DNA of 64,000 nt from Paenibacillus sp. BIHB 4019 (GTDB lineage: Bacteria; Bacillota; Bacilli; Paenibacillales; Paenibacillaceae). Where the stretch lies: positions 2,554,001 through 2,618,000 of the forward strand of contig NZ_CP016808.1 of assembly GCF_002741035.1 (NCBI RefSeq), given 5' to 3'. The notes below the pieces were generated by a model that worked only from the letters and a program-made list of their open reading frames with translations, had not been told where the DNA came from and made no database searches. This document shows, piece by piece, positions 17,862-31,383 of the stretch. The number at the start of each line of letters is the position of its first letter. Within the stretch, counting starts at the first letter, position 1. A program made the translations under genes and the position numbers.

Positions 17862-17989
17862 CACTCATGTCACATTTAAATCAACAATTTTGGTTATAAA
17901 AGCTAACATTCTCCTAGGAAAACGGTTCAAATGTATGTTAATATACTTTACATACAAGAAAATTAAGGAAGGGCATAGGGGGAGTGCGT

Positions 17990-20218
17990 ATGTTTGATTG
18001 GCTAGGTACAAGGACGGGGTTTCCACTGTGGGTATCATGGAAGCTCAATTCTGGCATTAAGGAAGATGTCGAGCACATTTTCGAAGGCGTTGCAGATACT
18101 CGCAAAGAGCTGCTGCTGCAATGGGCGGATGAGTATTGGGGGCATATGGAGCGCCTGTCGAATCAATTGTCGGATGGCCTATCCGCATTGCAAGCTGCTG
18201 CATTTTCTAAGGACCAGCAGAAGTGGATAGCTCCTTTGCTCGAACGATCCTATGCGAGGGGTATGGATTTTACGGAGCTGTTCCTCCTAGACAACCACAA
18301 TCATGTAGCTCACTCCACCTATCCCACCCATATAGGCACCCATTATGGAGAGGGCAGCGCGCTGTCTCCGGGCATGCAGTATTCCCAAGAAGGCGCTTCA
18401 GCAGGCAGCCGCTGTTTTTTTGGTCCTTACGAAGACGGGATTACACTTAAGCTAGGGGCCCGAACCTCCTCTTTTCACGACAAAATGACGATTATGTTCA
18501 TGCAGCCGCTGCTTGTGAACGGCAGCCGGGTCGGAACGTTATGCGGGAGAGTGCCTAATGATGTGCTGGGCGATTTGATCCAGCGCGAGTCAGGACATGT
18601 CTATCCGGATTCGGGCGATAATTATTTGTTTATGGCCGAGCCTAGTTTGCAGCGTAATATCGTACCTGGTACAGCGTTATCCCGCAGCCGTTTTGAGGAC
18701 CGTACGTTCACTCATGGCGAAAATCTAAAGGATGGCGTAACGACAGACTGGGGTACCGTGTCGATTAAGGAGCATACCGAGCTGGAAATTGTTTTCACCG
18801 ATCCGGCAACGGGGGAGCTGCATCCTGGCGTCGCAGGAACCATTCGCAATGGCAGCAATTTATTCGCTCAGTTTCCTGGCTACTCGGATTATCGCCATAT
18901 TGCCGTCATCGGCAAAGGCGTCACTTTCCGAATGCCGCATTGCCCTGATCTATGGGGGATGATGTGCGAGGGCGATCTGGAAGAGGTGTATCGGCTGCGC
19001 AGTATTGGCTGGCGGCAGCGCAAGCTGCAAATGTATGCAGCGCTGCTGCAAAGCGTTCTCACGTTTCTGCTTGCTTCTCTAGTCATTGGCTATATGCCGC
19101 TATGGGGAGCAGCAGCTGTGCTTGGCGGATTTAATTTGCTGTTCGGTGTTTTGTTTGCGATGTCGGTGCAGCGCAAGGAATCGCAGCGGGTAACTGGGCA
19201 TCTAGAGCGGATTAATCGTTTTATTCGCATTAATGCCGAGGGGAAGGGTGATTTGACCCAGCGGCTGTCGACGAAAGAGTTCGATTGCGACGAGACGCAG
19301 GAGCTGGCAAAATGGATTAACAATATGATCGATTCACTCGAAGGCATTATGCTGCAGGTGAAGCTCACCGCTGCCGAGGTGCTGAGCAGCCAGTCCGTCA
19401 TGAATGAGTCGTCTGCCCATACCGCCTTGTCAACGGAGCGTGTAGGCAGCAAGGTGGGCCATATGATTGGCAGCATTCGTCACCAGCTGAAGGATATCGA
19501 CAAGGCAAAAAATGCTGCGGGTGAAATGCGCGATACGCTATCTGTACTGGAGCGCCAAGCGGCAGAGCAAATTGCGGTGGCGCAAACCGAGGTTGGCCGC
19601 ATTGGGGAGAAGATGCAGCATATTTCCACCAAGGTAGAAGATACGAACGGTACGATTCGCAAGTTCATGAAGACGGTGGAGGAAATTCGCGATGTGCTTC
19701 AAGTAATCGAGGAAATATCGTCGCAAACCAATTTGCTGGCACTTAATGCTTCTATTGAAGCGGCGCGTGTTGGCGAGCAGGGCCGAGGCTTCGCGGTCGT
19801 TGCTTCCGAAATCCGCAAGCTGGCGGACTTGACGAAGAAATCGACAGAGGAAGTGCACGGCATTACGCGGCAAATTTATTCAGAAGCCGAGCAGGCCTAT
19901 CATTCAATGGACGAGGGTACGAAGGTTGTAGAAGAGGGTACTGATCTCGTTGCTGCTGCAGCCCGCACCCTGCAATCGGCGCAGGCGGACGATCAGCGCA
20001 AAACGCAGGTTGTAGAGGAAGTGGTAAAACTGATGGAGCAAATTGCCGAAGTCAGCTTGCAAAACCGCTCGGTTTCCTCTGATGTGGAAGGACAAGTGCA
20101 GGAGTTGATTGTGGAGATGGACAACGTTCGCCATACCTCAACGAATGTCGAATCTATTACAATGCTGCTTCAACAGCTCGTGGGCCAATTCAAATTAACA
20201 GAGTCTAGAGTCAGATAG
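17990..20218 (+). CDS. Methyl-accepting chemotaxis protein with no N-terminal membrane helix
   Basis: 742 residues. No membrane segment is seen at the N-terminus. A soluble sensor region of about 345 residues comes first, with Cache-like features ([13 protein letters not shown]), then two adjacent hydrophobic helices (about 348-366 and 368-389), a HAMP region (about 390-450) and the methyl-accepting domain. The signalling tip [20 protein letters not shown] lies near 575, with [16 protein letters not shown] beyond. By this reading the sensor is cytoplasmic, which is uncommon for MCPs. The ATG at 17990 follows AGGGGGAG; a GTG at 17984 is possible. Ligand unknown. Confidence 0.88.
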
Positions 20219-20308: not shown

Positions 20309-20354
20309 CTGGGGGTGCACCTAAAACTCCATCATAGACGGTAGTGGGAGCATT

Positions 20355-20528
20355 TGTTATAATTGTAACTATTATTAGATTAGAAAAGCAGCAAAATTCA
20401 ACCCTTTTTCATCAGATAGTTGAAGGTGACGCCAAGGGGACGATAACGCCAGGTTAAGCAGGCATGCATTGGCGAGGCAAATCCCTTTTTACAAGGACCG
20501 ACGCTTATGATTAGCTCGGTCCTTTTGT
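20355..20528 (+). promoter_or_regulatory. Structured leader (promoter, possible pseudoknot, terminator) ahead of nuoJK
   Basis: An extended -10 (TGT then TATAAT, 20355-20363) should start a transcript near 20370. The leader holds a hairpin TTCAAC/GTTGAA (20397-20424). Then come CGCCAA (20430-20435) and GGGG (20436-20439), which can pair with TTGGCG (20469-20474) and TCCC (20482-20485) in crossing order, an H-type pseudoknot. A strong terminator, AAGGACCGA/TCGGTCCTT with a T-run (20491-20528), ends 32 nt before the first gene. This is a riboswitch-like layout; I could not assign it to a known class. Confidence 0.5.
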
Positions 20529-20559
20529 GTTAAACTTAGGAGAGGGAGAGTGCGGTTCA

Positions 20560-21216
20560 TTGTTTAATGGATGGTTTACGGCAGAAACAACCGCGTTCTT
20601 CCTTTATTCGGCCCTTGTTGTGACGGGCTCTATCATTATGATTCATGCCAGAATGCTGCCTAGGCTGGCTCTGGGCGTAGTGTTGACGATTATTGGAAAT
20701 TCAGGGCTGCTCGTCCGGCTAGATGCCGGTCTGATTGCGCTTTTTCAGGCACTTCTATATGTGGGTACAATGGGAATTTTGCTAGGGTCAGAGATTAGGA
20801 GGCATTCGGAAATAGGCCGGCATAACCGGTCGATTGGAATCGCTTCCCGCGAAATGGCAGCTGCTGCAGGCATTCCGTTTTTGCTCGCTATTCTGATGTA
20901 TGTCATTTTGAAGCTGCCCTATTCTGGCGAAGAAATGCCGCTGCTCCCTGCCCATTTGATGACAGCGGCGACGCTGATGGCTATTGGGGTGTACGGGGCA
21001 ATTGTCAAAAGAAATTCATTGGTGGCCTTGCTGTGTGTAAGTATCATTTTATGCGGAGCCCAGTTGAACATTGCTGCTTTAAGCTTATATGTACATGGAA
21101 TAGAGGAAGGGCTTGGAACTCTTCCTTTGGTGGTTTTTTTCGCGCAGGCTTCAATTGGAGCGGCCGTATTAATTGTATTATACAAACGAGACTCCACCAC
21201 CTCTAATCATGAATAA
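20560..21216 (+). CDS. NuoJ-NuoK fusion, complex-I-like membrane subunit
   Basis: 218 residues. The first half resembles NuoJ (three helices ending LIALFQALLYVGTMGILL). After a linker, the second half resembles NuoK (LMAIGVYGAIVKRNSLVALL, then QLNIAALSLYV, then ASIGAAVLIVLY). In NuoK two membrane glutamates are essential for proton movement. Here the first position reads Ser (CVSIIL where GLELML is usual) and the second Gln (AQASIG where AEAAIG is usual). The TTG at 20560 is chosen because GGAGAGGGAGAG lies upstream; an in-frame GTG at 20527 falls in the terminator. nuoL follows after 27 nt. There is no nuoA-I nearby, so an ordinary complex I role is unlikely. Confidence 0.75.
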   Translation: MFNGWFTAETTAFFLYSALVVTGSIIMIHARMLPRLALGVVLTIIGNSGLLVRLDAGLIALFQALLYVGTMGILLGSEIRRHSEIGRHNRSIGIASREMAAAAGIPFLLAILMYVILKLPYSGEEMPLLPAHLMTAATLMAIGVYGAIVKRNSLVALLCVSIILCGAQLNIAALSLYVHGIEEGLGTLPLVVFFAQASIGAAVLIVLYKRDSTTSNHE

Positions 21217-21243
21217 TAGTTAAACAGGAGGTGATCGTAGCAG

Positions 21244-23109
21244 ATGCAAATGTATGCTGAGGCTGCTTTTCTTATTCCGCTGCTGCCGCTAGCTTCTTTT
21301 TTGATCCTGCTGGCGCTTGGCCGAGGGTCTCATTCTGCTGGCGCCTGGGTTGGAACAGGAGGCGCAGCTGCTTCGCTGCTGTTGTCGCTTCTGGTATGGA
21401 TTGAGCGGTTCCGCTATAGGGCAGTCGATTATAATGATAGCTTTAACTGGATTTCGATAGATCGGCTTACGCTGCGAATTGGATTTGAGGTTACTAACAT
21501 GAGCGCGCTGCTGCTGGTAGGTGTCAGCTTGCTGAGCATGTTGGTTCATATTTATGCCGCTGGTTATATGAAGAAGGATGAACGCTTGACGGTGTTCTAC
21601 AGTTATATGTCCTTATTCACCTTCTCGCTGCTGGCACTCACTCTCGCAGATAACGTACTGGCGTTTTATTTGTTCTGGGAGCTTGCCTCCGTCAGTCTAT
21701 TTTTATTGTTTGGTTTCTGGTACGCGAAGAGCGCGGCGCGTGCGGCTGCCAAGAAAGCTTTTATTATGATGCGTTTAGCGAGTGCGGGATTGCTGCTTGC
21801 AACGCTGATGCTGTTTTGGTTTATGCCGGAGCATGCGCTTGATTTTGCTGCTATACATAACGTTTTTGAAGGGCAATCCGGTGCGATTGCGAAAAATATA
21901 ACAGCATTGATCGCAAGCTTGCTGCTGCTTGCGGCGGCAGGAATGGCTGCGCAGTTTCCGCTCTACGCTTGGCTGCGCAGTGTCGAGCAGGCTCCTGCTC
22001 CAGCGAGCGCGCTGCTGCAAGGAGCAGGCATGATGGCAGGAGCGCTGCTTCTGTCCAAAACGACAGAAATCTTCCAATCGGCTCCAGCCGTAACGGACGC
22101 GGCGCTTTATATTGGCGCTGCGACAGCGGTTTATGCTGCTGCCAGGGCGCTAATGGAGCGGAATGTGAACAAAATATTGATTTATTCGACAATCAGCCAG
22201 CTAGGTATCGTTCAGCTTTCGCTCGCCCTCGGTGCCGCCACAAGCAGCATGCTTTATGTGCTAGTCCATGCGATTTGCAAAACGCTGCTTGTATTGGCAG
22301 CAGGCCAACTATTGAAGGCAGTTGGAACAGCGGATATAGGGAGCATGGGTGGTTTGCGCAAGCATATGCCGCTTGCAGCGTGGACGTTTTTCATTGGCGG
22401 TGTGGCTTTATGCGGCATTCCCCCGCTCACGGGCTTTTGGCTGCAGCAGTCGATTTGGGCGGAAGCATCAGAGCGGAATCTATTGTGGCTGGCTGCAATT
22501 ATGCTTGTACTGCTTTTGACCGCGGCTTATATGTCCCGCATGTATTTTCTTATATTTGAAGGGAAGCCGCGTTCAACTGCAACGGCCATGCTTGATCAAG
22601 GCCATAAGCGTTCGCGCCTTATGAGCTATTCGATATTTGCGCTTGCCGCGATCGTTGTCCTTTCAAGCTTCTTTCAATTGGTCTGGGGCAGCTTGCCTGA
22701 ACGATGGCTCGATGGGGAAGCGGCTGGCGCGCAAGGCAATATGTCCTTAGCATCAATGCTGGCCGCTACTGCAATCCTTCTAGGTGGCGCTTGGCTCGGA
22801 TGGCTCAAAAACAAACGTGAGGCGAACGCGACGGGCACTGGCCCAAATCAGCTGAAGGATGCTTCTGCTGGATGGGCGGCAGGCAAAGCGAGTGCGATCA
22901 AGCAGCCGTTTGCCGCTGCCGGTGAGGCATTAGCGGCGATTGAACATGCGATGGGCATGCCGCTCCAGCTGGCGGCTCGACTGTTGTATGCGATCGGGAG
23001 GCTGGCTGTTAGCTGGAGCCTTCGCAGTACGATTCGGGGAATGGGACTAGCGATCATTTTTGGACTGGTCATCACGATCATCATCATGGCTGCAAAGGGG
23101 GAGTGGTAA
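21244..23109 (+). CDS. NuoL-like antiporter subunit, charge-depleted
   Basis: 621 residues with about 14-16 membrane helices, plus a C-terminal soluble/amphipathic region and final helix (LAIIFGLVITIIIMA), as in NuoL. Conserved: the TM5 Glu (FWELASVSLFLLFGFWY), AAKKAFI, YSTISQLG, the HAxxKxLLxLAAG lysine. Changed: the TM7 Lys of GKSAQFPL is Met (GMAAQFPL), the TM8 His of ALIHA is Gln (ALLQG), and the TM12 Lys-Asp of GFWSKDEI are Gln-Gln (GFWLQQSI). A perfect AGGAGGTGATC precedes the ATG. Proton pumping in the standard manner is doubtful. Confidence 0.82.
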   Translation: MQMYAEAAFLIPLLPLASFLILLALGRGSHSAGAWVGTGGAAASLLLSLLVWIERFRYRAVDYNDSFNWISIDRLTLRIGFEVTNMSALLLVGVSLLSMLVHIYAAGYMKKDERLTVFYSYMSLFTFSLLALTLADNVLAFYLFWELASVSLFLLFGFWYAKSAARAAAKKAFIMMRLASAGLLLATLMLFWFMPEHALDFAAIHNVFEGQSGAIAKNITALIASLLLLAAAGMAAQFPLYAWLRSVEQAPAPASALLQGAGMMAGALLLSKTTEIFQSAPAVTDAALYIGAATAVYAAARALMERNVNKILIYSTISQLGIVQLSLALGAATSSMLYVLVHAICKTLLVLAAGQLLKAVGTADIGSMGGLRKHMPLAAWTFFIGGVALCGIPPLTGFWLQQSIWAEASERNLLWLAAIMLVLLLTAAYMSRMYFLIFEGKPRSTATAMLDQGHKRSRLMSYSIFALAAIVVLSSFFQLVWGSLPERWLDGEAAGAQGNMSLASMLAATAILLGGAWLGWLKNKREANATGTGPNQLKDASAGWAAGKASAIKQPFAAAGEALAAIEHAMGMPLQLAARLLYAIGRLAVSWSLRSTIRGMGLAIIFGLVITIIIMAAKGEW

Positions 23110-23110
23110 A

Positions 23111-24748
23111 ATGGCATTTTTGACAGAGCTGCCGCTTTTGTCTTTAATGTGGCTGGCCCCTGCTGCCGGCATGCTGCTTATCCTGCTCACGCCATCCGGT
23201 CAAGGAAGAGCGATGCAGTCGCTTGCCGTGCTTGCGGCACTGCTCCCGCTGCTTTTCGCTGCTTTTTTATATGCGGCATTTAATCAACAGCAAGGGGGCG
23301 GCGCTTATACGGAGCAGTATACGTGGATTGAGATTCCGCTCCCTTTTGCTTCAACTGTAGGACAAGTATATAGCGAAGCAAAATTATCCTTTTCCTACAC
23401 GGTTGCGGTAGACGGGCTATCGCTGCCGTTGCTGCTTGCCGCCGCGCTGGTGACGGGGCTCGCTGCTGTGACCGCTGTTCAGCTTAGGAAGCGGCGCAAA
23501 GCGTTTTATTTTTGGCTGCTGTGGCTGGAAGCTTCACTGCTGGGGCTTTTTATCGCCAGGGATGTTTTGCTGTTTATCGTATTTTTACAGGCCGCGCTGA
23601 TCGCTCTTTATTTTCTGCTGGGCATATGGGGCAATCCGGACGGCGAGCGGACGGCGAATCGGCTATTGGCTGGGGCAGGGCTAGGTTCTGTGCTGCTGCT
23701 TGTCGTATTCCTTATTTTGACCTGTACGGCGGGCCTTCGTATTGAAAAGGCTGGCGAGCAGCTTCATGCGGTATACAGCGGATCATACGGCGGAATCGCC
23801 CGTGGGCTGCTTGCAGGAGAGACGGCAATGAGCCAAGAGGTGCCGGATGGGAGAGCGGCAGCCGCAGCGCCATTGTCCGAAGGTGTGAAGATGGCGCTGT
23901 TTATTTTGCAGCTTATCGGCTTCGGTTTGTTTATGCCGCTTCTGCCATTTCATACATGGCTAATGAAAGCGCAGGCCAGCGCACCAATACCGGTCGCAAT
24001 GATTATTTCGGGTCTGCTTCCGGCCGCCGGGTCGTATGGACTGCTGCGCTATGGCGTATTTTTGTTTCCAGAGCAAGCGGAGAAAATGGCCTCGGCTCTT
24101 GCTGTTCTCGGCATTATTCAGCTTCTGTACGGGGCTTTGCTGGCTCTGCGCCAGACGGATATGAGGCAGCTGCTTGCTTATGCCTCGCTTAGCCAAATGG
24201 GATTGATTTGGCTTGGAATTGCCGCCTTTAATGAGACAGGGCTGCAGGGGACGATCTTTCAGCTCATGGCGGGCAGCTTATGCTTTGCCCTGTTATGGCT
24301 CGTTGTCGGCAGCTTGCAGGAGCGAGCTAAAACAACGGCAATTTCCGAGCTTGGCGGCTTGGCCCGCTCGCTTCCGTTTATTTGCGGCATTTTCATGGCC
24401 GCGGGGCTGTCGATTATCGGCATTCCCGGCTTGGCTGGCTTTCCCGGGATTTTACTGTCGCTGCTCGGCTTATTCGATTCGCTGCCATGGCTCGCTGCTG
24501 CCGCAATACCGGGAATCGTACTCACTGCCGCTTATATGCTGCGAGGACTGCTGAGCGTAAGCTTCGGGCCGATTGATGAGCGGCATGCGGCATTCAAGGA
24601 TGCCCGCCTTATTGAGGCAGCGCCGATGATTATCTTGCTTGCTTTTATCGTGCTGCTCGGCTGCTTCCCGTCATTTTTGACCGATACGGTGCAGCAAAGC
24701 ATTACGGGGCTTTATAGTCAATTGCTGGCAGGCAGGATGGAGGGATAG
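23111..24748 (+). CDS. NuoM-like antiporter subunit, charge-depleted
   Basis: 545 residues, about 14 membrane helices. The antiporter fold is clear from ALYFLLGIWGNPD, PLLPFHTWL, GSYGLLRYG and LASLSQMGL, yet every charged residue of the usual proton path is replaced: TM5 Glu is Gln (FLQAALIALYF), TM7 Lys is Phe (GFGLFMPLLPF), TM8 Lys is Ala (GLLPAAGSYG), and TM12 Glu is Ile (GFPGILLSLL). The ATG at 23111 follows GGGGGAG, one base after the nuoL stop; the open frame upstream overlaps nuoL and is not conserved. nuoN follows after 3 nt. Confidence 0.8.
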   Translation: MAFLTELPLLSLMWLAPAAGMLLILLTPSGQGRAMQSLAVLAALLPLLFAAFLYAAFNQQQGGGAYTEQYTWIEIPLPFASTVGQVYSEAKLSFSYTVAVDGLSLPLLLAAALVTGLAAVTAVQLRKRRKAFYFWLLWLEASLLGLFIARDVLLFIVFLQAALIALYFLLGIWGNPDGERTANRLLAGAGLGSVLLLVVFLILTCTAGLRIEKAGEQLHAVYSGSYGGIARGLLAGETAMSQEVPDGRAAAAAPLSEGVKMALFILQLIGFGLFMPLLPFHTWLMKAQASAPIPVAMIISGLLPAAGSYGLLRYGVFLFPEQAEKMASALAVLGIIQLLYGALLALRQTDMRQLLAYASLSQMGLIWLGIAAFNETGLQGTIFQLMAGSLCFALLWLVVGSLQERAKTTAISELGGLARSLPFICGIFMAAGLSIIGIPGLAGFPGILLSLLGLFDSLPWLAAAAIPGIVLTAAYMLRGLLSVSFGPIDERHAAFKDARLIEAAPMIILLAFIVLLGCFPSFLTDTVQQSITGLYSQLLAGRMEG

Positions 24749-24751
24749 CTC

Positions 24752-26266
24752 ATGACAAATAGTGAAGCGCTGGGTTCGCAGTTTTGGTTAGGTACGGTGC
24801 AGCTTATTCCTGAGCTGCTCCTCCTTTTGCTGCTGATTACACTTGCTGCTGGCCCCCGGTTTCGCTTGTGGCACCAAGCGGGACCGGCGCCAGGGTGGTT
24901 GACACTGCCTTGGCTGGTCGTCGTATTTGCAGCGGCCTTATGGCGGATGGTAGCGAACGGCACAGAAGCGGCGATAGCGATTGCCGAGGGCAGACAGCCT
25001 GGCGGAGTGGCGGGAATCCCCTATCTGGGCTTAAATGCGGAAAGCTTCATGTTTTTGCTGGTCATGGCGGGAGCTATCATAGCGGTGCTGCTCAGTCTGG
25101 GAGAAGAGCGGGAGCAGCGTATTAACGTTTATTTATATATTCCTGCTGCGCTGCTTGGCATACGTTTGCTGCTTGCGCCTTCCAATCTTATTACGCTCTA
25201 TGTGGGACTTGAGCTATTTAGTTTGGCGGCATTGAGCCTGATTTTGGCCACGTTGAAAAAGCGGCATAAGCATTTGTCTCGGCCTGAACGCCCGGCAGTG
25301 CGCTTCTCGGCCCGTTCTGGCGTTGGAACTGCCCTGCTGCTGTTCGGCATGTCTTATCTTTATGGCTTGACTGGCGAGATGGACTTAGCTGCTATTCGTG
25401 CATCCATTTCTGATATGCAGTCGTATGCTTCGCTTGCATACTTGGCCATTTTGCTCATGGCATGCGGTTTGGGCGTAAAAGTGGCGGCCCTGCCATTTAG
25501 CATTTGGATGTCCAACGAGAATGGAAAAAACACGGGCTTTCCTTATACGGCTGGCGCGATGTTTCTAGTAGTAGCAGGCCAAGGCGCAGCTGCGGCTGCA
25601 TTGTATCATCTGCTCCATGAAACGGAGATAGTCCAGCTATTGGGTTTAAACAGCGCTTATATCGGCTTGCAGGCAATTGCAGCCTGCCAAATCGCTTGGG
25701 GCACATTCGCGATGCTGAGGCAAAAGCAGGCTGCTAACCTATTAGGCTGGGCGAGCGCCATCAATAGCGGCTATTTGCTTGTTCCGGTCGCACTTAGTCT
25801 TGCACCCGCTCATAGCAGCTTATTCGCACCGCTCGGCTATCAATTCGCTGTGCATATGCTGGCCATGTTTGGGGCTACAGCTATTTTGGCAGCTGTTCGG
25901 GAAGCGACAGGGCATGGAAAGCTCAGCGGTCTGGCTGGTTTGTATCATCGGTCGCCTTGGCTTGCGGCAGCGATGGCTGTTTTCGTGCTGTCGCTTGCAG
26001 GCTTGCCGCTAACGGGCGGCTTTTTTGCCAAAGTGTATATATGGCTGGGCAGCGTTGCAGCAGAGGCCTATTGGCTGCTGGGCATTATGGCTGTATGCAG
26101 CCTCGTTGCCGCGTATGCTTATTTCGGCTTTATCCGGCAAATGTTCATGAGAACGGGCAGCGACGAGCGTGCGCTTTCGCTTCCGTTTGCCGCATCTGTA
26201 GGCATTGCTATTTGCGCCGTCGCACTTGTCGTGCTGGGCTTGTTCCCAGGCTTGTTAATGAAGTAA
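24752..26266 (+). CDS. NuoN-like antiporter subunit
   Basis: 504 residues, about 14 helices. More of the proton path is kept than in its neighbours: TM5 Glu (LYVGLELFSLA), TM7 Lys (GLGVKVAALPF) and TM12 Lys (SLAGLPLTGGFFAKVYIW) are present, but the TM8 Lys of GSKAA is Gln (AGQGAA). GGATGGAGGGAT precedes the ATG. It ends the four-gene module; no terminator is obvious in the following 490 nt. Confidence 0.82.
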   Translation: MTNSEALGSQFWLGTVQLIPELLLLLLLITLAAGPRFRLWHQAGPAPGWLTLPWLVVVFAAALWRMVANGTEAAIAIAEGRQPGGVAGIPYLGLNAESFMFLLVMAGAIIAVLLSLGEEREQRINVYLYIPAALLGIRLLLAPSNLITLYVGLELFSLAALSLILATLKKRHKHLSRPERPAVRFSARSGVGTALLLFGMSYLYGLTGEMDLAAIRASISDMQSYASLAYLAILLMACGLGVKVAALPFSIWMSNENGKNTGFPYTAGAMFLVVAGQGAAAAALYHLLHETEIVQLLGLNSAYIGLQAIAACQIAWGTFAMLRQKQAANLLGWASAINSGYLLVPVALSLAPAHSSLFAPLGYQFAVHMLAMFGATAILAAVREATGHGKLSGLAGLYHRSPWLAAAMAVFVLSLAGLPLTGGFFAKVYIWLGSVAAEAYWLLGIMAVCSLVAAYAYFGFIRQMFMRTGSDERALSLPFAASVGIAICAVALVVLGLFPGLLMK

Positions 26267-26758
26267 ACAGCCCCTGATTGGAAGGAGCCCAATAGGGTAA
26301 GAAAACAATATGGATTCAGAAAGCTGGGCCTTTGGTCGCTATATTAAACCGGAACAAGGACAAGCCTGCTCCAAGCGCGAAAGTTAATGGGAGAGATAGC
26401 AGATCCAACAGTATGCGAATGAGAGATTTAGCAGATACAACGGCAAGCAACAGGTTAAGGTGCAATGGAATATGAAGCAATGTGATGATGTAGGTAGGGA
26501 TAAGTAAACGGAATTAAGTGCGAATATAAGTGCGGAAGTTAAGTGCGGATGTAAATGCGAGAATTGCATGAATCGTAAGTGAGAATGCCAAGTGCGGATG
26601 TAATTGCAAGAATTATACGAATGGTAAGTACGAATGCCAAGTGCGGATGATTAGGTATAAATGATAAGAGCGAATGATATGCACGAATGAAAAGTGTGAA
26701 TGAAAAGTACAAAAGATAGGCACGAGAAAAATACGAATGCAAAGGCAGAATAAATAAC
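26267..26758. other. Gene-free purine-rich spacer with tandem repeats
   Basis: 492 bases between nuoN and the protease gene with no credible gene. The plus strand is A/G-rich, built of loosely repeated units such as AAGTGCGGATG and GTACGAATG. A clear 49-bp tandem repeat lies at 26541-26651. The weak site AAAGG near 26741 is the only ribosome-binding candidate for the next gene. Confidence 0.7.
26541..26651. repeat. 49-bp tandem repeat, about 2.3 copies
   Basis: Units at 26541-26589 and 26590-26638 have the same length and differ at about ten positions; a third begins at 26639 and decays after about 12 nt. Each starts AAGTGCGGATGTAA and ends GAATGCC. Confidence 0.85.
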
Positions 26759-29299
26759 ATGAAGTTTAATCATGGTAGGTTCCGCAGTTTGCGCCGCCAG
26801 CTTGCTGCGCTGCTGGCGGTTATGTTGCTCTGCGGCGTTGTATCCGCCGCAGAGCCTTGGGCGGCGGAGCGTATTGACGCCGCCCCAAGTGCAAAAGAGG
26901 AGCCGCCGCAAAGCTGGCTCCTCAAATGGAGCGACCCCGCGCAAGCAGCTGAGCTGCGCGGGACGCTCGTGATCCGCCGCCAGGCTGAGGCGGCGGTCGA
27001 TGTTGTACGTCCGGCCGAAGCATCGGCGGACGTCGAAGCATGGCTGCGCCGGCTGCGAAGCACGCCGGGCGTCGAATACGTGTACCCGAATGGACGGGTA
27101 CACGCCTTAGAGCTGTCCGCCGCACCGCAGGCGGACGACAGCCCTCCAGCCGAAGCTGCCTCCGGCGAGGCTTCGGCCCTTACAGCCGCCGCCGCGAAGG
27201 CAGCGGCGGCCAACGATCCCGAGCTTGCGAAGCAAAGCTATCTCAAGCAGATCGGCGCGCTAGCCGCTTGGAAAACCGTGCGCGAGCAAACCGCGCTGAC
27301 GATCGCGATTGTCGATACGGGCATCGATCTCGACCATCCCGATCTCAAAAAAAATCTCGTCCCCGGCATCAACTTGATCGACACGGATACGCCGCCTGAG
27401 GACAATAACGGCCACGGGACAAGCGTGGCTGGAGTAATTGCTGCTTCCGGCAACAATGGCATTGGCGTATCCGGCATTTTGTGGAAGGCGAAGCTGATGC
27501 CGATCAAAGCGCTTGATCATAATGGCGATGGGACAGAGCAGGATTTGGGCGAAGCGATTTTGTATGCGGTGCGCAAGCAGGCCAAGATCATCGTGCTCTC
27601 CGTGGGATTATACCGTTATTCTCCTTATATGCAGGACATTGTAAATTATGCAGAGAGCAAAGGGGTGCTGCTGGTAGCAGCAGCGGGCAATGATGGACAG
27701 ACGCTAGGAAGTATGGCAGCTGTAAAATATCCCGCCGCCTATTCGACGGTGCTGGCAGTTGGCGGCGTAAAAGCGGACAATTCGCCGGATTTGCGTTCGA
27801 ATCCCGGTACGGAGCTGGATTTGTCAGCGGCCTGGAATGTGTATACGACAGCAGTAGGCGGGACCTATAAGAAAGAAGAGGGCACGTCGATGGCCGCCCC
27901 TCAGGTAGCAGCAGCGGCGGCACTCATCTGGGCCCGTTATCCGAAGCTCAAAACGTATCAAGTCAGGGAGCTGCTGCGCCAAACGACGCGCAACATTGGC
28001 GGCTCGGGCTTCGATAATCGTACAGGCTATGGGCTGCTGCAAATCGATAAAGCGCTGAGCACACCTGTTATAGCCGATGGTTTTGAGCCGAATGATACGA
28101 GGGCCACAGCTGCCTTTCTCCCCTTGAACAAGCAAATATCCGCCGTACTCAATACGGGCAAGGATATCGACTGGTACACCGTGGAGGCGCCATATGACGG
28201 CAAGCTCACGATGAAGTACCAATCACTGACTGAATCAGGGGCCGCGATTCCGCCTATTCGGCTGCTGCATTATGTGAATGGTGTCCAGAAAAATACTTAT
28301 ACGACGAAGCTTGCCAGCGGCAATGCCGAGTTCACGGTAAAAAAAGGGACCCAAAAAATAGGCGTCCAGTTCATGAACAGCGATAATGCAGCCCGTCAGC
28401 CCTATTTGCTGGACTCCTCTTTTATTATGAAACCTGATGCTTATGAATCGAATGACCAGACGTACGAAGCGTTCGCTTTGTCGCCGCGCAGCCAGACGGT
28501 AGTGGGCAATTTCCATCAGAAGGCGGATCGCGACTGGTATGCGATTACCTTCAAGCAAAGCGGCACGCTGCGGCTTACCTTGGAGGGGAATACGGCGCGA
28601 ATCGATCCGGGCCTTGCCGTTCAGCGGGCCGGACAGTCGCTTCGAACCTATGATGAGGAGTCGGAGGGCCAGGCAGAAATATCGCCAACATTGACAGTAA
28701 CACCCGGGAAATATTATATTCGTGTGCATAATGCTATTTCGTCTGAGGCCAGCCCCGTCATTGGGCAATACACGCTGAAAATCAACTATGTGCCGAAATA
28801 CGATGATCCTAATGAGCCGAATAATCAATATTACGAAGGCTTGAGCATACGCAGCGGCACAGAATATGTAGGGGTCATTGACAGCAGCACCGATGTCGAT
28901 TGGTTCCAGCTGCGCCTCGCCCAAGCGAGCCAAATTGATTTGCAGCTGTTTAATGTTCCTTCAGGAAAGGTAATGCAAGTCATAGCATACGATAAAAAGC
29001 AGCAGCAGCTTTTTTCACAGAAAACAGGCAGCACAGGCAAGCTGGATGTGAAAAACAAGCGGCTTCCTGCGGGCGTTTATTATTTTAAACTGACAGCCAA
29101 TGAGCCCTTCGACAAGCAATATTACCGTTTCAAGGTAACGGTCAAAACGTCCTTTGCCATCGCTCCTGCAATTACAGAGCAGCAGCTTCCGGCCAGCGAA
29201 GCGGGAGCCGATGAAGGACTCCGCATGTTTAGAGTGGAGGACCCTGCCGTGGAAAGCAGTGGAGAGCCATTTGCAAAAGAGCGGCTGCTCGTGCAATAG
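26759..29299 (+). CDS. Secreted subtilisin-like (S8) protease with three PPC-like domains
   Basis: 846 residues. Signal peptide (LRRQLAALLAVMLLCGVVSA), an acidic/Ala-rich propeptide to about 165, then the catalytic domain with triad D186 (AIVDTGIDLDHPDL), H219 (NGHGTSVAGV) and S377 (GTSMAAPQVA). Three bacterial pre-peptidase-type repeats follow, each opening with E(P/S)ND/N and containing DxDWYxV or a similar sequence (from about 442, 562 and 682). The first 600 bases are much more GC-rich than the rest. Secretion is expected; no anchor is seen. The ribosome-binding site is weak. It is inserted between the nuo-like module and ywzB. Confidence 0.9.
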   Translation: MKFNHGRFRSLRRQLAALLAVMLLCGVVSAAEPWAAERIDAAPSAKEEPPQSWLLKWSDPAQAAELRGTLVIRRQAEAAVDVVRPAEASADVEAWLRRLRSTPGVEYVYPNGRVHALELSAAPQADDSPPAEAASGEASALTAAAAKAAAANDPELAKQSYLKQIGALAAWKTVREQTALTIAIVDTGIDLDHPDLKKNLVPGINLIDTDTPPEDNNGHGTSVAGVIAASGNNGIGVSGILWKAKLMPIKALDHNGDGTEQDLGEAILYAVRKQAKIIVLSVGLYRYSPYMQDIVNYAESKGVLLVAAAGNDGQTLGSMAAVKYPAAYSTVLAVGGVKADNSPDLRSNPGTELDLSAAWNVYTTAVGGTYKKEEGTSMAAPQVAAAAALIWARYPKLKTYQVRELLRQTTRNIGGSGFDNRTGYGLLQIDKALSTPVIADGFEPNDTRATAAFLPLNKQISAVLNTGKDIDWYTVEAPYDGKLTMKYQSLTESGAAIPPIRLLHYVNGVQKNTYTTKLASGNAEFTVKKGTQKIGVQFMNSDNAARQPYLLDSSFIMKPDAYESNDQTYEAFALSPRSQTVVGNFHQKADRDWYAITFKQSGTLRLTLEGNTARIDPGLAVQRAGQSLRTYDEESEGQAEISPTLTVTPGKYYIRVHNAISSEASPVIGQYTLKINYVPKYDDPNEPNNQYYEGLSIRSGTEYVGVIDSSTDVDWFQLRLAQASQIDLQLFNVPSGKVMQVIAYDKKQQQLFSQKTGSTGKLDVKNKRLPAGVYYFKLTANEPFDKQYYRFKVTVKTSFAIAPAITEQQLPASEAGADEGLRMFRVEDPAVESSGEPFAKERLLVQ

Positions 29300-29368: not shown

Positions 29369-29635
29369 ATGGGTTTGACTCAGGATATGTTGAACAACAT
29401 GCAGACAGCCACAGGAGTTACGGGACTGTTCTCCATCGTTGTAACGCTCGTTAGCATTGTACTTATATGGTTTATTATGCAGGAGCTGAAATGGGAAGCG
29501 TTTTTTGCATTTCCCCGCAGCCCCAAGGCTCGCATGTTTCAGGCGGTTATTGCGATCATACTGGGGCACGCTTTTGCCAGCTTCATTTTGGATTACTGGT
29601 CTTGGACGACAATGCTGAAGAGTTTTGTCGAATAA
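29369..29635 (+). CDS. ywzB: DUF1146 family membrane protein YwzB
   Basis: 88 residues with two hydrophobic helices (about 17-38 and 57-75) and the connecting motif QELKWEAFF. DUF1146/YwzB sits between the atp operon and murA in many bacilli; its function is not known. Here it is separated from atpC by 12 kb of inserted genes. GGAG lies 5 nt before the ATG and a stronger AAGGAGG lies 14 nt before it. A terminator follows. Confidence 0.85.
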   Translation: MGLTQDMLNNMQTATGVTGLFSIVVTLVSIVLIWFIMQELKWEAFFAFPRSPKARMFQAVIAIILGHAFASFILDYWSWTTMLKSFVE

Positions 29636-29946: not shown

Positions 29947-31383
29947 ATGACCAAAATTATCGTCCGCGGAGGCAAGCGTTTATCGGGAACGGTACGTGTC
30001 AGCGGTGCAAAAAATGCAGTACTCCCCATTCTAGCAGCCTCTTTACTTGCGACGGAAGGAGACAGCGTCATCTGTGACGTTCCCCTCCTCGACGATGTCA
30101 TGACTATACAGAAGGTATTGGCATCATTAGGCGCAACGATATCGTATCAAGATACAACAATGAGAATTTCGGCGGGAACGATTGCTTCTTACGAGGCGCC
30201 CTATGAGCTGATTCGCAAAATGCGCGCTTCCTTCCTTGTTATGGGACCGCTGCTTGCACGGATTGGCAAGGTGCGTATTTCGCTTCCGGGCGGCTGCGCG
30301 ATTGGAACACGTCCGATTGATCAGCATTTGAAAGGCTTCGAAGCGATGGGAGCGGAAATTACGCTCGGACACGGCTTCATTGAAGCAAGCACAAGCACGC
30401 GTCTTAAGGGCGCAAAAATATATCTCGACGTAGCAAGCGTAGGCGCTACTGAGAACATTATGATGGCTGCTGCACTCGCAGAAGGCACCACACTGCTTGA
30501 AAATGCTGCAAAGGAACCGGAAATCGTCGACCTCGCTAATTATTTGAATGCGATGGGCGCGAAGGTTCGCGGCGCAGGCACAGGCCTCATTCGCATTGAA
30601 GGCGTTGAAAGCTTGCATGGTGTGACGCATCATGTTATTCCTGACCGTGTAGAAGCGGGCACCTATATGATTGCTGCAGCGATTACAGGCGGCGACGTGT
30701 TTGTAGAAGGAGCAATTGGCGATCATTTGACACCGGTCATTTCCAAGCTGCAAGAGATGGGCGTGGAGGTGCTTGAGTCGGATAACGGCATTCGGGTTAA
30801 AGCGGATCATCCGCTGAAATCGGTAGACGTGAAGACGTTGCCGCACCCGGGCTTCCCGACGGATATGCAATCGCAAATGATGGCGCTGCTGCTCGTATCC
30901 GAGGGTACGTCGGTTGTAACCGAAACGGTATTTGAGAATCGCTTTATGCATGTGGAAGAATTCCAGAAGATGAATGCGCATATTAAGATCGAAGGCCGTT
31001 CCGCTATCGTTAGCGGAAATATGCCGCTAACTGGCGCGAAAGTATGTGCGACGGACCTGCGTGCAGGCGCAGCCTTGATCTGTGCAGCATTGCGTGCTGA
31101 TGGCGAGACGGAAGTAACGGGCATCCACCACGTAGATCGCGGTTATGTAGATATTACAGGCAAACTGGCTTCGCTTGGAGCGCTTATTCACCGCGTTGAA
31201 GCGGAGGAGGAAGAGAAGCAGGCGGCTGTTGTGGAAAATGCACTTCAAGCTAAAGCGGTCGCTGCTGTAGAACAAGCGAAGGAAACGGCTGCTGTTATCG
31301 CAGCAGTTGAGCTGGATTCGGCTTCAAGCTTCAAGCGGGAGAAGGAAGCAACGGTTTTGAAGGTTCAGCCTACTTGGGCTTAA
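29947..31383 (+). CDS. murA: UDP-GlcNAc 1-carboxyvinyltransferase with C-terminal tail
   Basis: Commits UDP-GlcNAc to peptidoglycan synthesis by adding enolpyruvate from PEP; cytoplasmic. The usual landmarks are [20 protein letters not shown], active-site C117 in [11 protein letters not shown] (the fosfomycin target), [10 protein letters not shown] and [16 protein letters not shown]. The family normally ends just after this point (about 417-436 residues), but here about 58 extra residues follow, rich in Ala, Glu and Val and likely helical. RBS GCGGAGGG. Position before spoIID (here with insertions) matches murAA. Confidence 0.96.

Follow-up and report, generated by a model that had tools for sequence, protein, structure and literature searches.

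What the antiporter-like membrane subunits contribute to complex I (NDH-1) is a long-standing debate. Proteins of this type also combine with hydrogenase- and carbonate-type partners, the Mrp Na+/H+ antiporter has antiporter-like membrane subunits without a redox arm, and DabAB (DAB2), a system of inorganic carbon uptake, uses a NuoL-type protein without complex I. Here, we analysed a stretch of 64,000 nucleotides (nt) from the soil bacterium Paenibacillus sp. BIHB 4019 (contig NZ_CP016808.1, positions 2,554,001 to 2,618,000 of the forward strand; called the window below), in which four genes at positions 20560–26266 encode a NuoJ-NuoK fusion together with NuoL-, NuoM- and NuoN-like proteins. 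With the 11-gene nuoABCDHIJKLMN operon of Paenibacillus this module shares its locus, a promoter block, the gene order J-K-L-M-N, NuoK, L, M, N and most of NuoJ, as well as the antiporter fold; it differs in the fusion of J and K with loss of the J end, in the missing NuoB, NuoD and NuoH (the subunits searched for) and in the loss of most proton-path residues of K, L and M. With moderate confidence, we read it as a membrane arm that has been retained but no longer pumps, its role being structural or otherwise unrelated to protons.

The first-pass annotation, made from the letters of the window alone, had described four intact, tightly packed genes, and this was borne out: all four frames are open and follow each other on the forward strand with gaps of 27, 1 and 3 nt. 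They encode the NuoJ-NuoK fusion (20560–21216, 218 amino acids, aa), the NuoL-like (21244–23109, 621 aa), the NuoM-like (23111–24748, 545 aa) and the NuoN-like protein (24752–26266, 504 aa), i.e., homologues of the membrane subunits J, K, L, M and N are all present, with J truncated. Pfam placed the NuoK-type domain PF00420 of the first gene above its cut-off and the NuoJ-type domain PF00499 under it (20.2 vs 33.2 bits). The NuoJ half was identified by alignment to NuoJ of the genus, with 28–33% identity across the matched stretch; it corresponds to about the first 116 of 171 NuoJ residues, the end of NuoJ is missing, and NuoK is joined directly to it. PF00361 was matched in each of the NuoL-, NuoM- and NuoN-like proteins. 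In a sequence comparison with solved chains, which covered L and M and left N out, the NuoM-like protein was nearest to complex I chains (E value 1.5e-54 vs 4.9e-27 and 4.9e-23 for antiporter D chains), and the NuoL-like protein was far nearer to NuoL-type chains (1e-71) than to DabB2 (4e-15). Queried with the fusion, a word-based search across 5.8 billion proteins returned five entries including the window's own, the named ones being from P. algorifonticola (two) and Paenibacillus sp. KS-LC4, whereas NuoL orthologues with 85–96% identity were seen in Paenibacillus sp. Leaf72, P. algorifonticola and Paenibacillus sp. FSL H8-0537 among the best 120 of 636 matches.

The host genome (G000 in our set) is a single contig of 7.25 Mb and 99.96% complete. 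Profile-search controls in 14 named genomes were positive for NuoD in 11, NuoH in 11, NuoB in 11 and DabA in 2, the latter being B. subtilis and H. volcanii. In the complete host genome, there was no match to PF00346 (NuoD), PF00146 (NuoH, the membrane subunit of the quinone chamber), PF01058 (NuoB) or PF10070 (DabA), and PF00361 occurred in three proteins, every one inside the module. The earlier claim that nuoA to nuoI and nuoH are missing thus holds genome-wide for NuoB, NuoD and NuoH, the genome-wide search having left NuoA, C, I and E–G outside. A complete complex I elsewhere in the genome is ruled out for the three subunits searched. An identity as Mrp or DabAB is likewise ruled out by the PF00361 count, the chain similarities and the lack of DabA: unlike Mrp, the module has L and M proteins nearest to complex I chains and no further PF00361 protein in the genome, and unlike DabAB it is a four-gene J/K-L-M-N set. 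G000 is also without an Mrp-type antiporter, while other genomes of the genus, including G002 and G047, show a further antiporter-type match of about 500 aa elsewhere.

Within the genus, NuoD was found in 42 of 51 genomes. Four genomes (G000, G002, G047 and G048, the orphan genomes below) are without NuoD and have the module; NuoM of the latter three is 86–89% identical to that of the window, compared with 46–53% for the genomes with NuoD. PF00346 matches to NuoD were split in two, with a break near model positions 165–195, in 39 of these 42 genomes and came in one piece in G008, G026 and G050; divergence from the model is the probable cause of the split.

The module occupies the place of an ancestral operon. 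Full nuo operons lie at the same locus as the orphan modules, and all four orphan loci have the common order of atp genes, a tyrosine-phosphatase-like gene, a chemotaxis-receptor-like gene, JK-L-M-N and an S8 protease-like gene, followed by ywzB wherever the stretch extends far enough. In the window, the syntenic flanks on the forward strand are what we take to be a methyl-accepting chemotaxis receptor gene upstream (17984–20218) and, downstream, a presumable S8 serine protease gene (26759–29299), a ywzB-like (29369–29635) and a murA-like gene (29947–31383). The chemotaxis-like neighbour is 95–96% identical in the three other orphan loci, and 60% and 64% identical in G020 and G061, respectively. 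Immediately downstream of the module, between the NuoN-like and the S8 protease-like gene, there is an imperfect tandem repeat of 49 nt in 2.5 copies (26527–26649), surrounded by sub-repeats of 12–13 nt.

In front of the module, a block at 20325–20366 on the forward strand scored promoter-like, with the hexamers TAGACG and TATAAT (20335–20363, 17 nt apart, the second preceded by TG). The same block lies about 8–50 nt upstream of the nuoA frame in the loci L047, L071, L072 and L073; it is identical in two of the three other orphan loci, and in the third its core is kept, with mismatches at 10 of 42 positions, a number that was never below 19 in 200 shuffles. The 5′ leader from the promoter to JK (20367–20559, forward strand) is conserved in an alignment of all four orphan loci. 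A DNA search with the window's leader gave matches in 45 of the 51 genomes of the genus. Almost the whole leader was matched in the four orphans; the match in G020 was a block of 36 nt, and 40 of the 42 NuoD-bearing genomes had a block of some 42 nt at 81–95% identity, G023 and G027 giving none. Locus, promoter block and homology show the module to be an in-place deletion derivative of a full nuo operon, which is in line with the descent that the first-pass annotation had proposed.

Several further features were seen in this leader. A stretch of 38 nt (20495–20532) is 79% identical to the nuoA DNA of L054 (E value 6e-4 in a two-locus search), a weak match that could be a nuoA relic. A hairpin at 20493–20524, between promoter and JK, has stem arms identical in all four orphan loci and a short T run; it is a possible candidate for an attenuator, which the terminator scan did not call. 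The fold of the whole leader reached a z-score of only −1.68, and the three Rfam matches in the leader of the window were all far under their gathering scores. A riboswitch was rejected, the leaders of L042–L047 having no Rfam match at gathering score and the fold being unexceptional. In L046 (1798–6166) and L047 (12408–15157), genes that we assume to be spore-germination-like stand before nuoA, in L046 directly after the receptor-like gene; no such genes lie between the receptor and JK in the orphan loci.

Charged residues were scored by alignment to the Nuo proteins of E. coli K-12, whose residue numbers are used here, and compared with canonical rows from operons with redox-arm genes (22 NuoL, 21 NuoM and 21 NuoN; L of G131 was aligned, its frameshifted M and its N were left out of the other two alignments). 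For NuoK the comparison comprised 16 canonical rows, and 16 operons were read of the 42 NuoD-bearing genus genomes. The path positions were set beforehand as the Glu of transmembrane helix 5 (TM5), the Lys of TM7, the His or Lys of TM8, the Lys-Asp or Glu of TM12 and two Glu of NuoK. All four orphan modules share the changes E36S and E72Q in NuoK; D178S, K229M, H254Q, H334Y, K399Q (His in G047) and D400Q in NuoL; E144Q, K234F (Leu in G048), K265A, H322Q and E407I in NuoM, where H348 is variable (Gly in the window); and K247Q and H224S or G (Ser in the window) in NuoN. Kept in all four are E144, H338 and K342 of NuoL, H241 of NuoM, and E133, K217 and K395 of NuoN. The scored path positions, those of NuoK included, are kept in 16 of 16 genus operons, and the canonical L, M and N rows keep theirs as well, NuoL D400 being Asp in 20 and Glu in 2. 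Every charge loss named by the first-pass annotation is therefore real and common to the four orthologous modules, the alignment did not restore any of the charges at shifted positions, and the list grew by D178S and H334Y of NuoL, H322Q and H348G of NuoM and H224S of NuoN. The last of these corrects the statement that NuoN loses only its TM8 Lys, and the description of a module stripped of its proton-path charges is accurate for K, L and M, with 10 of 11 positions changed, but not for NuoN, with 3 of 4 kept.

These losses are concentrated on the path. In K, L and M taken together, 1 of 11 path positions is kept compared with 246 of 403 other canonical-invariant columns (Fisher's exact test, p = 7e-4) and with 21 of 46 other titratable columns (p = 0.037); in NuoM, it is none of 4 compared with 12 of 18 other invariant titratable columns, and most loop charges remain. 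In a Paracoccus study, catalysis could not proceed without the Glu-Lys pair and the terminal Glu of the NuoM-type subunit (PMC9802314), and an E. coli study proposes a path through K265, H322 and E407, plus the K229/D178 pair of NuoL (PMC9271201). Pumping is implausible here because these residues were lost jointly, not singly. Since NuoB, NuoD and NuoH are absent and K, L and M have lost nearly all of their path residues, the sequences strongly suggest that protons are neither pumped nor conducted by the module along the known route; that it may not pump protons was a possibility raised by the first-pass annotation.

The module is nevertheless maintained. Pairwise ratios of nonsynonymous to synonymous substitution rates (dN/dS; Nei-Gojobori, Jukes-Cantor corrected) among the four orphan genomes were 0.17–0.33 for JK, 0.18–0.24 for L, 0.15–0.18 for M and 0.16–0.22 for N at dS values of 0.20–0.58, far from the value near 1 of a pseudogene. 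In simulations of neutral drift at 0.1 substitutions per site (1000 runs each), only 0.2–0.7% of the runs left L, M and N open, and 13% left JK open; when drift was raised to 0.2 substitutions per site, none of 1000 runs each kept L, M or N open, these gaining 8.6–10.6 stops on average, and 3.3% kept JK open. A pseudogene cluster can be ruled out for the orphan clade by the open frames, the dN/dS values and this simulation, so that the earlier view that the genes are not simply decaying was well founded. The module is under purifying selection, but less strongly so than most genes around it, for which the four genomes gave dN/dS values such as 0.07–0.19 (phosphatase), 0.04–0.12 (AtpC) and about 0–0.02 (AtpA and AtpD).

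The orphan NuoL was modelled with AlphaFold2 from 45 sequences (predicted local distance difference test score, pLDDT, of 78). The model matched NuoL-type chains of solved complex I with a best E value of 3e-30 and template modelling scores up to about 0.8, and it ends in a 40-residue helix plus a last helix, the arrangement that a transverse helix would give. It thus appears from the model that the orphan NuoL keeps the antiporter fold. In the Paracoccus study, the transverse helix of the ND5/NuoL type is reported to be purely structural (PMC9802314), which fits a retained scaffold. The model of the JK fusion (pLDDT 58.6) was too poor for anything beyond counting about seven long helices and was set aside.

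Arm loss is confined to no single lineage: among 295 genomes of the Paenibacillaceae, 136 had a NuoM match at 1e-60 and 126 a NuoD match above cut-off, and ten of the 136 had NuoM without NuoD, i.e., the four orphan genomes plus G020, G061, G070, G098, G108 and G132. G020, G098, G108 and G132 have L and M followed by the C-terminal half of NuoN (204–230 aa), with L frameshifted in G132, and G061 has a shorter L, M and an N piece of 119 aa. Four genomes from three genera have such a half-N frame next to a NuoM that is intact (L065 10835–11470, L066 7812–8426, L067 8572–9264 and L045 5601–6227); two database proteins (P0008 and P0009) are 95% and 80% identical to the G020 form, and P0027 resembles a frameshifted copy of the G098 form. 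The L-M-part-N modules share with the orphan module the locus, the loss of the arm, partial loss of the path and, in some, the promoter block, but lack J and K, keep the C-terminal part of N only and do not form one clade with it on rpoB. In G070, nuoA and the end of nuoJ are left in addition to L, M and N (L064 7317–13411); this looks like a fresh deletion, although in a draft assembly where misassembly is possible. All six arm-less loci outside the orphan clade lie at the same locus as judged by S8-ywzB-murA and/or atp neighbours. Mismatches to the promoter block were 10 of 42 in G020 (23 nt before L), 10 in G070, 15 in G098 and 16 in G132, whereas G108 (20) and G061 (24) were no better than shuffles.

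In an rpoB tree of 30 genomes, a single clade for the ten arm-less genomes was rejected (approximately unbiased test, p = 6e-7), as was one for the five L-M-part-N genomes (p = 8e-4). The best tree has five changes of state (orphan clade, G020, G098+G108, G061+G132 and G070), of which the well-supported branches alone force two, the number of origins resting on one gene and a tree with open forks. Trees of L and M recovered the orphan clade (100/100) and paired G098 with G108, with the other arm-less rows on long unresolved branches. Judged by the rpoB tree, arm loss arose at least twice in the family. Of 296 genomes sampled across the order, 149 had NuoM and 146 had NuoH; the three with NuoM but no NuoH are G000, G047 and G061, so that by this NuoH test no arm-less case was among the 125 genomes of other families that have NuoM. 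A wider contig scan kept 80 loci, by title mostly complex I relatives from other phyla; the four of them that were read all had NuoD and NuoH. Within the open-access literature, which leaves most subscription papers outside the search, we found no published account of arm-less nuo modules. Two full nuo operons have one split gene, nuoM of G131 (L068 8869–10505) and nuoN of Cohnella kolymensis (L107 11562–13156), which could be either sequencing errors or first steps of loss.

The path was altered in the other lineages, too. Excluding G070, nine settled arm-less genomes remain (the four orphans and five others), in which E407 and H322 of NuoM are both changed in all 9 (E407 being Lys in G132 and H322 being Gln in 8 genomes), K265 of NuoM in 8, and K399 of NuoL in 9 (to Arg in 2). 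K234 of NuoM is kept in one of the five other genomes and replaced by Arg in three and Ser in one, and E144 of NuoL, kept in the orphan clade, is changed in all five (unsure in G132, where it lies at the frame break). By contrast, K395 of NuoN is Lys or Arg and H241 of NuoM is kept in 9 of 9. Altogether, the five others keep 10 of 45 path cells of L and M vs 1063 of 1667 other cells (p = 4e-8, the cells not being independent), 10 of 44 without the unsure G132 cell (p = 8e-8) and 15 of 44 when Lys/Arg and Asp/Glu exchanges are counted as kept (p = 1e-4). G070 keeps every scored residue except K342 of NuoL. Since this single early case lacks the arm yet has its charges, the order would be that the arm was lost first and the proton wires after. 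For the half-N lineage of G098 and G108, the proportion of nonsynonymous differences was 0.32–0.40 vs 0.71–0.80 for synonymous ones, whose sites are saturated and give no dN/dS.

For a retained, non-pumping membrane arm, the following course can be proposed. An 11-gene complex I operon (nuoA–D, H–N) lost the stretch from nuoA into nuoJ-K by deletion in place, behind its own promoter, so that the J-K fusion, L, M and N remained. Their products are most likely expressed and may still assemble into a J/K-N-M-L membrane slab, kept by selection for a structural or non-proton role, e.g., as a membrane scaffold or partner of another complex. Neutralising the wires after the loss of the arm would have stopped an uncoupled proton leak and left the folded scaffold intact. 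Similar erosion took place more than once in the family, as judged by the rpoB tree. A number of observations weigh against this reading. A pure scaffold would have no use for the three path residues that NuoN has kept, and the excess loss among transmembrane charges picked by hydropathy is not significant (p = 0.12 for the four proteins and 0.058 for K, L and M). Single changes can be tolerated in mutants: the Paracoccus NuoM-type variant with TM8 Lys (the K265 position) changed to Gln retains 18% activity and two His variants retain 57–78% and continue pumping (PMC9802314), and in E. coli the E407K variant of NuoM still reaches about 1.5 H+/e− in pumping (PMC9271201). Constraint is tighter in full operons (dN/dS 0.04–0.16 for the 34 out of 36 comparisons, from 12 close pairs, in which it was computable, at larger and rougher dS) and in the neighbouring receptor (0.04–0.07) and S8 genes (0.09–0.19). 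Most full-length superpositions of the NuoL model deviate by about 14–19 Å root-mean-square, its tail helix was predicted at low confidence, the G061/G132 lineage looks decayed with frames broken or shortened, and neither a partner gene nor a conserved new neighbour was found.

Slow decay, in which promoter-near genes were deleted and the functionless distal membrane genes are lost more slowly, is a fair account of the G061/G132 lineage, with its frameshifted L in one genome and short L and 119-aa N piece in the other. It also draws on the commonness of nuo loss (159 of 295 family genomes without a NuoM match at 1e-60), on the fresh look of the G070 deletion with its intact charges and on the weaker constraint of the orphan modules relative to full operons and neighbours. 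For the orphan clade we consider it unlikely: the four genes are open in each of four genomes, dN/dS is 0.15–0.33 at unsaturated dS, the neutral simulation breaks nearly every L, M and N run, promoter and leader are conserved, and charge loss is concentrated at path residues. About as improbable is an ion channel centred on NuoN, which would move protons or another cation within an inert scaffold of K, L and M. The retention of E133, K217 and K395 in all four orphans, and of Lys or Arg at position 395 in all five NuoN pieces of other lineages, would fit such a channel, but the central K247 (now Gln) and H224 are lost, the NuoK glutamates for coupling are gone, no driving component is left, and E133 and K217 lie in the N-terminal half of NuoN, which is missing from the other lineages. 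That the module forms a working enzyme with a redox partner from another place in the genome, as the known unions with hydrogenase- and carbonate-type partners might suggest, is largely refuted and has hardly any probability left, given a complete genome without NuoB-, NuoD-, NuoH- or DabA-type proteins and the lost path residues.

Beyond the retained membrane arm itself, the recurrence invites a broader proposal, to which we give slightly less than an even chance: the antiporter subunits of complex I may have a second selectable function beyond electron transfer and proton pumping, exposed repeatedly in Paenibacillaceae where the arm was lost, the slab kept and the wires stripped, which would define a new class of non-energy-converting complexes, even in the form of L, M and half of N. 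Evolution has detached the arm, apparently several times, and each settled lineage altered part of the set of residues that matter according to mutants. The modules therefore amount to a natural mutagenesis of the proton path, in which the retained loop charges, the fold, the path residues of NuoN and His241 of NuoM show what else is selected. If the module has a role, subunits of complex I do something besides energy conversion, and the label “NADH-quinone oxidoreductase subunits” would mislead metabolic models of these bacteria.

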